Shown here piece after piece: positions 6,359-10,628 of a stretch of 37,196 nucleotides of DNA (its first letter is position 1; each line of letters starts with the position of its first letter). This DNA is from Methanobacteriota archaeon (lineage in GTDB: Archaea; Thermoproteota; Thermoprotei_A; Sulfolobales; Sulfolobaceae): the NCBI GenBank assembly GCA_017857195.1, contig JAFMDM010000004.1, positions 1-37,196 of the forward strand, in the 5' to 3' direction. The position numbers were made by a program, and so were the translations under genes. The notes beneath the pieces are model-generated. The model saw nothing but the letters and a program-made list of their open reading frames with translations. It had not been told where the DNA came from and made no database searches.

Positions 6359-6856
6359 TTGAAGAGACTTCTAGTCCTTGACCTTGAGCAAGATGATCCA
6401 CAAAAGTGCACTGGAAAGAGAATGATCAGAATGGGCAGAGCGGAGAGGACATTAAGGCCTCGAGGGCTTAGCTTGAATCCTACTTCCTTGAAGATAATAG
6501 AGCCTGAGGACACCAATAGGTTCTCTGAAATCACTGTAATAGATTCTTCATGGAATAAGAGCGACGACATGTTCTTCTCGAAGTTTAGACAACACAGTAG
6601 AAGGCTCCCCTTGTTACTAGCAGGAAATCCAATTAATTATGGAAAGCCCTATAAGCTGTCCTCCATAGAGGCAGCGGCCGCTGCCCTCTTTATAATGGGG
6701 GAAAGAGAACAGGCAATTGACCTCCTATCGTTGGTGAAATGGGGGCACACATTTCTTGAACTTAATCTAGAACTATTAGAAAGTTATAGTAAAAGTCAGG
6801 ATTTAAAAGAAGAGGAAAGAAAGATCCTTAGGGAATTGTTCGGTTTATCGCTCTAA
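6359..6856 (+). CDS. Tsr3 rRNA aminocarboxypropyltransferase (DUF367)
   Basis: The family adds the aminocarboxypropyl group from SAM to N1-methylpseudouridine in small-subunit rRNA (helix 31), a late step of ribosome maturation. Recognisable signatures are LEQDDPQKCTGKRM near residue 9, DSSWNKS near 62, RRLPLLLAGNPINYGKPYKL and SSIEAAAAALFIMG. The length of 165 aa suits a crenarchaeal member. The TTG start follows AGTTAGGGAAG; a TATA-like ATTAAATAT lies about 40 nt upstream, implying a short leader. The 3' end overlaps the convergent permease gene by 4 bp. Confidence 0.9.
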   Translation: MKRLLVLDLEQDDPQKCTGKRMIRMGRAERTLRPRGLSLNPTSLKIIEPEDTNRFSEITVIDSSWNKSDDMFFSKFRQHSRRLPLLLAGNPINYGKPYKLSSIEAAAAALFIMGEREQAIDLLSLVKWGHTFLELNLELLESYSKSQDLKEEERKILRELFGLSL

Positions 6857-8265
6857 GTTCCTTGGGTTACAGTCTGCACCCTTTCCTCTGCTACCTCTTC
6901 CAGGCTCTTCTGTTTTGATTCCTTCACCAGTGCCACTGTTATTACGGCACCCACTACACTCAGTATGGCCAGCATCTCTAATATGCCTCTAACCCCTATA
7001 CTAAGCAGGAGCTCTGGGAAGAGGAAAGTTGTAACCGCAGCTCCTAGTTTTCCTGCTGCCGCAGATATACCATGACCAGTTGTTCTATACCTCACTGGAT
7101 ACACCTCAGCCGGAATTACGAATGTTGTTGTGTTGGGACCAAAGTCTATGAAGAAGTAGGAAAGCACGTAGAGTAACATGGCAGCCCATGAGGGTATTAT
7201 AAAGCCCGTTATTTTTGTTCCAGAGGCTATAGAGGCAGCCACAACTGCCCCATATATTATGGACATCATAATGAAACCCTGCGTTTGTATAGTCTTCCTT
7301 CCCAGTCTGTCCATTGCGGCTACCGCCGTGAAGTATCCAAAGAATCCAATTATGTACGGTAATCCCGCGTACAATATTGCTTTTTCCAATGAAGAGGCCG
7401 GGCCAAGAATTGAGGAAGTGATAACGCCCTGATATGTACCGGTTCCATAAAGCGCCATATCCACGATGAACCAAGTGGAAGTTGTGCCAAGGAGTAAAAG
7501 TCCATACTTCCTTAAGAAGCTGCCCAAGGAGAAGGTTTCAGCTTTTACCTTCTCGTTTCCCAGGTCAGCACCTAGAAAGGAAGCGGCTCTTTGGGCCTCC
7601 TTAACGTCTCCCTTCACCAGCAGCGAATATCTTGGAGTTTCAGGGGTCTTTCTCCTAAGATATATTACTGTAGCAGCGGGTATTGCGCCCACCAACGCAA
7701 CTATCCTCCATGCTATGCCAGGTGGAAACGCGATTACTGAGCCGATTCCTACGGCCAGTGCGGCAAGTGATCCCAATCCTTGATTGGCAAAAACTAATGC
7801 TATTAGCTTGCCCCTATCCTTGGTATTGGAATATTCTGACATAATGGTGGCTGACATGGGATAGTCGCCACCTATACCAATCCCCATTATGGACCTGAAG
7901 GCAATGAGGTAGTATATGTTGGGCGACATTGCTGAAAGTATCGCTCCAAACATCATCAATAAGGCTTCAACACCATATACTCTCTTTCTACCTACCCTAT
8001 CTCCTAAGAATCCAAAGACTAGCTGTCCTATGACTGCAGATGCTATTGACGAGGAGGCTAAAGCTCCAGTTATGAATGGGTTGTGGGCTATAATAAAGCC
8101 GGGCAAAGAGTTAGCTCCAAATATTATTAATATTGCTGTTATGTTAAATAGGTCGTACGCATCAGTGAAGAAACCCATTCCTGCCGTATACCATATCTTC
8201 AAATGATTGAAGGTTAGCTTGAGCGAGTCTATCGCATCAAATGGTCCCTTTCCACCTCTCTCCAT
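6853..8265 (-). CDS. MFS permease of the phosphate:proton symporter type
   Basis: The 470-aa protein has about 12 membrane helices. The MFS signature between helices 2 and 3 is GDRVGRKRVYG, repeated in the second half as DRLGRKTIQ. DAYDLFNI in helix 1 and GIGIGGDYPMSATIMSEYS in helix 4 are typical of the phosphate:H+ symporter family, which in Sulfolobales also includes aromatic- or sugar-acid transporters, so the substrate is not certain. The ATG follows an AT-rich region containing an inverted repeat that could be an operator. It converges with tsr3. Confidence 0.8.
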   Translation of the reverse strand: MERGGKGPFDAIDSLKLTFNHLKIWYTAGMGFFTDAYDLFNITAILIIFGANSLPGFIIAHNPFITGALASSSIASAVIGQLVFGFLGDRVGRKRVYGVEALLMMFGAILSAMSPNIYYLIAFRSIMGIGIGGDYPMSATIMSEYSNTKDRGKLIALVFANQGLGSLAALAVGIGSVIAFPPGIAWRIVALVGAIPAATVIYLRRKTPETPRYSLLVKGDVKEAQRAASFLGADLGNEKVKAETFSLGSFLRKYGLLLLGTTSTWFIVDMALYGTGTYQGVITSSILGPASSLEKAILYAGLPYIIGFFGYFTAVAAMDRLGRKTIQTQGFIMMSIIYGAVVAASIASGTKITGFIIPSWAAMLLYVLSYFFIDFGPNTTTFVIPAEVYPVRYRTTGHGISAAAGKLGAAVTTFLFPELLLSIGVRGILEMLAILSVVGAVITVALVKESKQKSLEEVAEERVQTVTQGT

Positions 8266-9089: not shown

Positions 9090-9722
9090 CTATTTGACGA
9101 CAACGTAAGGAGTGGAGACGCTAAGGGAAGCCACAACAACTACCCACATTCCGCTCTCGGCATGGGTATCTATTCCGCAACATAACCAATAATAGCCTTG
9201 CTGGATACTACTGTAAACTCCGTTTGCTGACTGTCCACTCATTAATCCGTTGTATTGATAGTTACTCATATTTGCACCAAGTTGGAATAGTATCTTGCCA
9301 TTTTGTCCTATGTCCGCGTTATTTGGGGATACAGTATTATTTAACACCAAATTAAGATTATGAGGTAGGGACTGTTGATTAATGAATGTAATATTGAGGT
9401 TAGAGCCGACAGGGACATATATTATCATACTTCCGTCACTGGTGCCATTTAAATTGAAAGGATTTTGAATTGATTGAGCCACTAGAACTATTTGCACAGT
9501 GTCGGTTGACTTAGAGAAAGGTAATGGTCTTCCTGGGAGAGTTGAAGTGGTATTGGTTGTCGTGGTGTTTGATGTCGTAGGCGGCTTTGTTGTCGTAGTG
9601 TTTGGAGTAATAGTCGTACTGGAGTGTTTACCCGCGGTAAGAGCTATATAGCCACCTACTGCAGCTACAACCACTATAACTATTATAATTGCAACGATAA
9701 TGTATGTTGAAATCGCCCTCAT
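9090..9722 (-). CDS. soxE: Sulfocyanin, membrane-anchored blue copper protein
   Basis: Sulfocyanins carry electrons between membrane respiratory complexes on the outer face of the cell. After one N-terminal membrane anchor (YIIVAIIIVIVVVAAVGGY) comes a Thr/Asn/Pro-rich, probably glycosylated linker, then a cupredoxin domain. Copper ligands are visible: H127 in LPHNLNL and the C-x4-H-x4-M cluster C188, H193, M198 (CGIDTHAESGM), numbered on the ORF-track start. I moved the start 18 nt downstream to the ATG of MRAISTYI, because TTTAATAAAC lies about 25 nt before it (leaderless) and only about 7 nt before the longer start. It is not in a soxEFGHIM-type cluster here. Confidence 0.93.
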   Translation of the reverse strand: MRAISTYIIVAIIIVIVVVAAVGGYIALTAGKHSSTTITPNTTTTKPPTTSNTTTTNTTSTLPGRPLPFSKSTDTVQIVLVAQSIQNPFNLNGTSDGSMIIYVPVGSNLNITFINQQSLPHNLNLVLNNTVSPNNADIGQNGKILFQLGANMSNYQYNGLMSGQSANGVYSSIQQGYYWLCCGIDTHAESGMWVVVVASLSVSTPYVVVK

Positions 9723-9741
9723 AGAGAGCGATATTACCATA

Positions 9742-9751
9742 GTTTATTAAA
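9742..9751 (-). promoter_or_regulatory. TATA box of the sulfocyanin gene
   Basis: TTTAATAAAC on the minus strand is centred about 25 nt before the proposed ATG. It also shows that sulfocyanin has its own promoter although the 8-TM gene upstream runs in the same direction. Confidence 0.55.
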
Positions 9752-9772
9752 CATTTTGCCAAATTTCTCTTT

Positions 9773-10576
9773 CTAAAGAGAGTTACCTCTTGTATATTTG
9801 CTTTCAAATACTATGGCAATATCGGTTATGGCAGATATTATGAAACCCGATAGCATTAATTGCCAGGTTTGAAGCGCCAGTCCTGCGTACAGCATTCCAC
9901 CTATTGAGGCCATTCCAACCCCTAATAGATTTATGATTGTCATTATAAAGAACATCTTACCTTTAGAGATGGAGATCAACGATAATGCTAACGCTGAGAA
10001 AAAGGTTAGGGCACCTAGGATTACGTGGATGAAAAGCGGAATAGGATATCCCTGTAATGACCCGACTACAGGAGAGACCTTAAGGCCTAATCCTCCAGTT
10101 ACGAGTGAAAGAACCAATGATGCTAAGGCAAGAGGGAAAATCAACTGTTCACTTCTGTAGCGTAATGCATACCTAGTTATACCGTAGAGAGTTGACGTAA
10201 CTGCAGATACGAAGCCTGCCAGCATAAGGAATGTTAAAGGTAAATTGAATTGCTCAAAGGAAAGCCTCTGTACAAGGAAAAACATTCCCCCAACTCCTGC
10301 TGACGCCACTGAGCCTAAGTTCAAACCGGCTGCAATTGTTAACTTTTTGTCTCCTACAGCAGACGATAGTGCTAAGAAAAGGAGCGAACCAACTGCCGCC
10401 AGGCCCCCAAGGGCCATGTGGAGGTAAATGAATGGGCTAAAGGCGGACTTTGGGGTCTCATAGGGGATCACGTAAACGGTGGAGTAGACCCCTAGTAGAC
10501 CAATTAAGGCGTAAAGTCCGAGCATAATTCCAAGGAGGACTCCTATGATATTCCTTATGCTAGTTGCCATAAGCAT
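9773..10576 (-). CDS. 8-helix membrane protein with duplicated halves, candidate haem/electron carrier
   Basis: I do not recognise a named family. The 267-aa protein has about eight hydrophobic segments in two similar 4-helix halves. YLHMALGGL (H53) mirrors FIHVILGAL (H184), NLGSVASAGVGGMFF mirrors NLLGVGMASIGGMLY, and LMLAGFVSAVT mirrors LMLSGFIISAI. A conserved-position histidine at the start of helix 2 of each half could ligate haem or quinone; this is inference. It lies 50 bp upstream of sulfocyanin on the same strand, so a role in the same electron-transfer step is plausible. The start ATG follows GGAGGG, and TTTTTAAAAG lies just upstream. A second in-frame ATG 6 nt on is an alternative. 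Confidence 0.7.
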   Translation of the reverse strand: MLMATSIRNIIGVLLGIMLGLYALIGLLGVYSTVYVIPYETPKSAFSPFIYLHMALGGLAAVGSLLFLALSSAVGDKKLTIAAGLNLGSVASAGVGGMFFLVQRLSFEQFNLPLTFLMLAGFVSAVTSTLYGITRYALRYRSEQLIFPLALASLVLSLVTGGLGLKVSPVVGSLQGYPIPLFIHVILGALTFFSALALSLISISKGKMFFIMTIINLLGVGMASIGGMLYAGLALQTWQLMLSGFIISAITDIAIVFESKYTRGNSL

Positions 10577-10628
10577 AAACCCTCCTAGGACCTTTTAAAA
10601 ATTGGGATAGAGAAATCGTTCATAACTC

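Follow-up and report, generated by a model that had tools for sequence, protein, structure and literature searches.

Cytochrome b and haem A synthase (CtaA) hold haem in helix bundles by means of diagonally placed ligands, with small residues leaving space, and the cytochrome b of bc1, SoxC and SoxN follows a four-helix logic in which His and Gly stand on alternate helices. Research on the SoxABCD quinol oxidase cluster dates back to the early 1990s. The CtaA/Cox15 proteins (PF02628; structure 6a2j; type 0 in archaea) have eight transmembrane helices (TM) arranged as two 4-TM halves; TM2 has a His close to its outer end, and TM3 a glycine motif. CtaA has been proposed to originate by duplication and fusion of a 4-TM unit (PMC8239418). 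The type-0 form is known from the Sulfolobaceae (PMC12808453, PMC8239418). DUF420/CtaM (PF04238) is a membrane protein with four TM that is associated with haem-copper oxidases. CtaM is required for oxidase assembly and dispensable for haem A synthesis (PMC8239418). Here we describe an 8-TM protein that shares the two-halves architecture, the TM2 His and the TM3 glycine motif with CtaA, the four-TM unit with DUF420, and the alternation of His and Gly with cytochrome b.

The window, i.e., the whole 37,196-nt stretch of DNA that was analyzed, comes from a fragmented Sulfolobales assembly (1.78 Mb in 193 contigs) of a heat- and acid-loving archaeon of the genus Sulfodiicoccus; the sister species S. 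acidiphilus HS-1 was the sole other genome of this genus in the searched set. Two open reading frames (ORFs) were found on the minus strand at 9090-9740 (216 aa) and 9773-10576 (267 aa). The first matched PF06525 (E=4e-55, 185.8 bits against a cut-off of 21) and TIGR03094 (188.7 bits, above the 168.4 cut-off), and the type I copper ligands His, Cys, His and Met were seen by eye in SLPHN and C-GIDT-H-AESG-M. Judged from its sequence, the product is unambiguously a sulfocyanin, a SoxE-type blue copper protein, as the preliminary description of this DNA had stated. The second ORF encodes the 8-TM protein, which is hydrophobic and whose only histidines are H53 and H184. An MFS (Sugar_tr) transporter gene, mentioned for context only, lies downstream (6853-8265, minus strand), and the order MFS-sulfocyanin-8-TM is identical in S. 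acidiphilus. The TATA-like sequence TTTTTAAAA (10593-10601, minus strand) is located 26-27 nt upstream of the M3 start of the 8-TM gene, and TTTAATAAA (9743-9751, minus strand) 25 nt upstream of the M7 start of the sulfocyanin gene; in S. acidiphilus the box of the 8-TM gene is likewise 27 nt upstream of the start. Because TATA-like boxes occur 25-27 nt upstream in both species, M3 (position 10570; 265 aa) and M7 (position 9722; 210 aa) are likely the true starts, and since such a box precedes each gene in both species, the two genes may be transcribed separately, from their own promoters.

The 4+4 duplication noticed at the outset was confirmed. Half 1 (residues 1-138; 10163-10576, minus strand; helices 2-34, 48-74, 77-105 and 112-139) and half 2 (residues 139-267; 9776-10162, minus strand) aligned with each other at 29% identity over 98 columns (p=1e-5), with the two histidines and the paired glycine motifs in register, so that the claimed equivalence of H53 and H184 also holds. 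The wording "mirrored" for these histidines was misleading: each half has four helices, and therefore the protein is a direct, parallel repeat, not an inverted one, in which the two histidines lie on one side of the membrane, the outer one. The loops predicted as inner carry 9 K+R and the outer ones 3, which by the positive-inside rule indicates an N-in topology. In S. acidiphilus the gene has a one-base frameshift within half 2, before the second histidine (locus L004, about 8650), and the sequence is kept on both sides of it (61% and 49% identity). Since that genome is PacBio-only (PMC6647314), the frameshift is possibly an assembly error; alternatively it is a recent real mutation. On the two sides of the frameshift, pN/pS is about 0.35-0.41, with synonymous sites saturated.

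The preliminary description took the proximity of the blue copper protein as a sign of a functional pair, which conserved adjacency across the Sulfolobales would have supported. The adjacency was found to be confined to this one genus (2/214 genomes of the order), which weakens the pairing. A direct homologue of the whole 8-TM protein was present, among the 214 genomes, in the sister species only; a search of genome contigs with the whole protein gave no homologue, and the window sulfocyanin forms a genus-specific lineage in the tree. Conserved adjacency was thus rejected, and in most genomes another membrane protein adjoins sulfocyanin. In most Sulfolobaceae, the non-SoxM sulfocyanin gene has as its neighbour, often within 500 bp, an uncharacterised membrane protein of ~250-290 aa with the motif SG[ATS]SCC (L041:5490-6290, L007, L010, L016, L043-L049, L057-L062 and others); the one member tested had no Pfam match, and this protein may be the true conserved partner of sulfocyanin. 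A third sulfocyanin copy in one further genus (g10; L064, L065 and L068) adjoins a 160-aa 5-TM protein with the motif YVHVM[ST]GV, and two of the three loci also have an MFS transporter close by; this 5-TM protein was tried as a relative of the 8-TM protein and failed the profile tests (p about 0.2-0.3).

Relatives were reached in another way, i.e., through the ORFs that surround the sulfocyanin genes of the order. Among these, genomes resembling S. acidocaldarius showed two 4-TM ORFs in tandem, and a profile built from them recovered two-gene tandem pairs in 26 of the 31 Sulfolobaceae genomes, as well as diverged copies that occur singly. The window 8-TM ORF matched the B-type HMM with 28.5 bits (E=6e-8); half 1 scored 14-19 bits and half 2 25.2 bits against the family HMM. 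The four half sequences gave 14-25 bits with the family profiles, compared with 8.9 bits for the best of 200 shuffles and at most about 8 bits for unrelated ORFs with the same profile among 3325 ORFs from the fetched loci. Hence, at the level of sequence comparison, the assignment of both halves to an uncharacterised archaeal family of 4-helix membrane proteins is well supported, and the 8-TM protein represents two family copies fused into one gene. The full signature also occurs in additional members from another Thermoproteota genome, another Sulfolobales family and Thermoplasmata. Neither Pfam nor NCBIfam has a model of the family, and searches of the open-access literature gave no description of the tandem pair; an earlier mention in subscription journals, e.g., in the early sox operon papers, is possible. 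The single diverged copies (132-153 aa; L117-L119 and L121-L128) lie directly 3′ of, and often overlap, a gene for a soluble protein of ~185-210 aa, one of which has a weak winged-helix match; such a couple is possibly a membrane sensor with its regulator. A marginal member (L056:3420-3803, 13 bits), with the full G-H-A-G-M signature by eye, is found near sulfocyanin in a Metallosphaera-like genome.

Five positions are invariant in the 45 units compared, which were drawn from Sulfolobaceae, other Thermoproteota and Thermoplasmata and span two archaeal phyla: a Gly in TM1, a His in TM2, an Ala and a Gly in TM3, and a Met in TM4. In the window protein (all on the minus strand) the His corresponds to H53 at the outer end of TM2 (10418-10420) and H184 in TM6, i.e., TM2 of half 2 (10025-10027), which are the candidate axial ligands of the two halves (45/45). 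The Met corresponds to M118 at the outer end of TM4 (10223-10225) and M241 in TM8 (9854-9856), the candidate second ligands (45/45). The AxxxG motif of TM3 is A93-xxx-G97 in half 1 (10286-10300; 45/45) and A223/G227 in half 2 (9896-9910), and the TM1 glycine is G29 (10490-10492; invariant in the 44/44 rows that cover it) and G164 (10085-10087). F122/F245 are nearly invariant. Because the topology is N-in, all five invariant residues are expected to point toward the outer face, in the outer half of the membrane. The conservation of the histidines, on which the preliminary description had made its proposal depend, therefore extends to every relative found, and the invariant Met as a second candidate ligand, the tandem-gene homologues and the resemblance to CtaA were absent from it.

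The genomic context of the unfused genes is the Sox cluster. In 9/9 loci examined the tandem pair follows the Rieske gene soxL immediately downstream, divergent from soxA-B-C. A small soxD-like ORF (43 aa in S. tokodaii, PMC5461723) separates the pair from soxL. Canonical soxB, defined by an identity of at least 58% to S. acidocaldarius, and the tandem pair occur in exactly the same 26 of the 31 Sulfolobaceae genomes; for independent genomes the chance of such a match would be about 6e-6, but these genomes are related, not independent, and the two genera that show both states (G178/G179 and G195/G196) still agree. The unfused homologues were thus inside the SoxABCDL quinol oxidase cluster in every case examined, whereas the fused protein of the window genus sits outside it, beside sulfocyanin. 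This genus has neither the tandem pair nor canonical soxB, and its best SoxB (44-46% identity) is located in another cluster. The conserved context is therefore that of the unfused family beside SoxL/SoxABC, not that of sulfocyanin. In Sulfolobus and several other genera, the pair is followed by a third membrane gene (~175-185 aa, 4 TM) whose first helix has a conserved His (L046:1229-1759, L110:5635-6192, L111:6421-6948 and L115:8610-9134).

The protein had no meaningful match among all Pfam-A models (E up to 1), NCBIfam and the PDB sequences, and the cytochrome b561, NarI and DoxD/TQO families to which the preliminary description had looked gave none among all the Pfam-A and NCBIfam models. 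In the AlphaFold (AF2) models four confident helices are predicted per half; the pLDDT of half 1 is about 90 within the full protein, and half 2 modelled alone reaches a pLDDT of 90.4 and a pTM of 0.83. The fold search with the full 8-TM model was uninformative, with half 2 poorly modelled there because it has few relatives. When the half-2 model was compared with the PDB by Foldseek, the highest TM score among the matches listed was that of the Bacillus subtilis haem A synthase 6a2j (TM 0.69, rmsd 3.8, prob 0.97), with an E-value of 0.86 that is not significant; a designed di-haem bundle (8ccr, prob 0.97) was also among the matches listed, again with a non-significant E-value. Since no Foldseek match is significant by E-value, the predicted likeness to CtaA is a lead, not proof. 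The profile comparisons, which used DUF420, SoxC, SoxB, DUF1404 and further membrane proteins as partners or decoys, gave a weak signal with 30 Sulfolobaceae CtaA (p=0.005 at full length, 0.002 for the N-half; the two halves of CtaA compared with each other gave p=0.049), and in this alignment the family His falls on the His of ExxHR, with the TM3 Gly in register. With DUF420 the p-value was 0.008 and the family His fell on a DUF420 His, whereas the other membrane profiles tried gave p of 0.2 or more.

The leading reading, which we hold with close to even confidence, is that the 8-TM protein is a fused pair of 4-helix bundles, each of which most likely binds one His/Met haem near the outer surface and exchanges electrons with an outer redox protein. 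The TM2 His and the TM4 Met would be placed diagonally opposite each other in the bundle, and the small residues of TM1 and TM3 would make room for a flat cofactor, a layout that would be that of the cytochrome b and CtaA bundles with the second His replaced by Met. A haem so ligated would lie close to the outer surface and would therefore be suited to exchange with a protein docking there, which in most species would be the Rieske protein SoxL/SoxABC and in the window genus the membrane-anchored sulfocyanin. Haem binding and electron transfer are both inferred here, and several points weigh against them: the conserved Gly may serve helix packing, the association with soxABC fits an assembly role equally well, the frameshift in the S. 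acidiphilus type strain falls within half 2, and the adjacency to sulfocyanin is genus-specific, with seemingly separate promoters. The family also departs from cytochrome b, to which it has no sequence similarity (p=0.2), in having one candidate site per bundle, with His/Met in place of His/His. The earlier proposal of an undescribed membrane electron-transfer or haem module rather than a transporter thus remains the leading reading, given the invariant histidines, the lack of a transporter match and a haem protein as the best structural neighbour; its coupling to sulfocyanin is the part that has been weakened.

The main rival, which we regard as rather unlikely, is an oxidase-assembly or haem-handling factor, whose bundles would hold haem (As or O) transiently and aid its insertion into SoxABCD-type oxidases, much as CtaM, a 4-TM DUF420 protein, acts for the bacterial aa3 oxidases. 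The strict co-occurrence with soxB and the place within the oxidase cluster are what such a factor would show, and DUF420 is the one profile besides CtaA with a low p-value. It is uncommon for assembly genes to persist as two paralogous subunits. Moreover, DUF420 had no matches in the Sulfolobaceae sampled, the window protein does not match PF04238 and has a different His pattern, and the window genus keeps the fused protein beside sulfocyanin without a canonical soxB; the need for CtaM in oxidase assembly but not in haem A synthesis (PMC8239418) speaks for the rival.

In a second alternative, the invariant His and Met would bind Cu(I), and copper would be delivered to sulfocyanin or to the oxidase. 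The nature of the ligands, their outer-side location and the copper proteins encoded nearby fit such a site, but there are only two candidate ligands per bundle, the small residues of TM1 and TM3 and the CtaA-like fold better suit a flat cofactor, and no Pfam or NCBIfam copper family was matched, which makes a copper site quite unlikely. Small cofactor-free 4-TM subunits are common in respiratory complexes, and the co-occurrence with a quinol oxidase would agree with a haem-free quinone-binding or purely structural subunit; this reading, or that of a transporter half-repeat, is distinctly improbable given that His and Met are invariant in every unit and in both copies and that no transporter family was matched.

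A divergent or second haem A synthase is very improbable: the 4+4 architecture, the CtaA-like fold and a His in the right helix are offset by IYLHMA and LFIHVI in the window protein, which lack the Glu and Arg of ExxHR (E, H and R are invariant in the 30 CtaA), by the Met that all family units carry in TM4 instead of the second axial His, and by the type-0 CtaA that every Sulfolobaceae genome already has. Scanned against Pfam with E up to 1, the window protein gave no match to PF02628, and its genome gave none either. The idea of a missing haem A synthase that this absence suggested was rejected, as one type-0 CtaA with EA[ILM]HR, missed by PF02628, was found in each of the 31 Sulfolobaceae genomes (L176-L205, and 9527-9814 of contig C126 in the window genome), those of both Sulfodiicoccus species included.

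Returning to the His/Met haem reading, a wider proposal can be made, tentatively and with some doubt: the family would be undescribed archaeal membrane cytochromes with one outer His/Met haem per bundle, overlooked as a pair of subunits or partners of SoxABCDL in most Sulfolobaceae, and in Sulfodiicoccus they would have been fused and switched to sulfocyanin, a step that would replay the duplication and fusion from which haem A synthase is proposed to have arisen. In the searched genomes these two genes always accompany canonical soxB, yet they have no Pfam or NCBIfam model, and no description of them was found in the open-access literature searched. If the pair binds haem, the architecture of this archaeal respiratory chain and the route of electrons to sulfocyanin would have to be revised. 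Taken together, the unfused and fused forms provide a living example of a 4-TM tandem becoming an 8-TM fusion, of the kind proposed for the origin of CtaA (PMC8239418).
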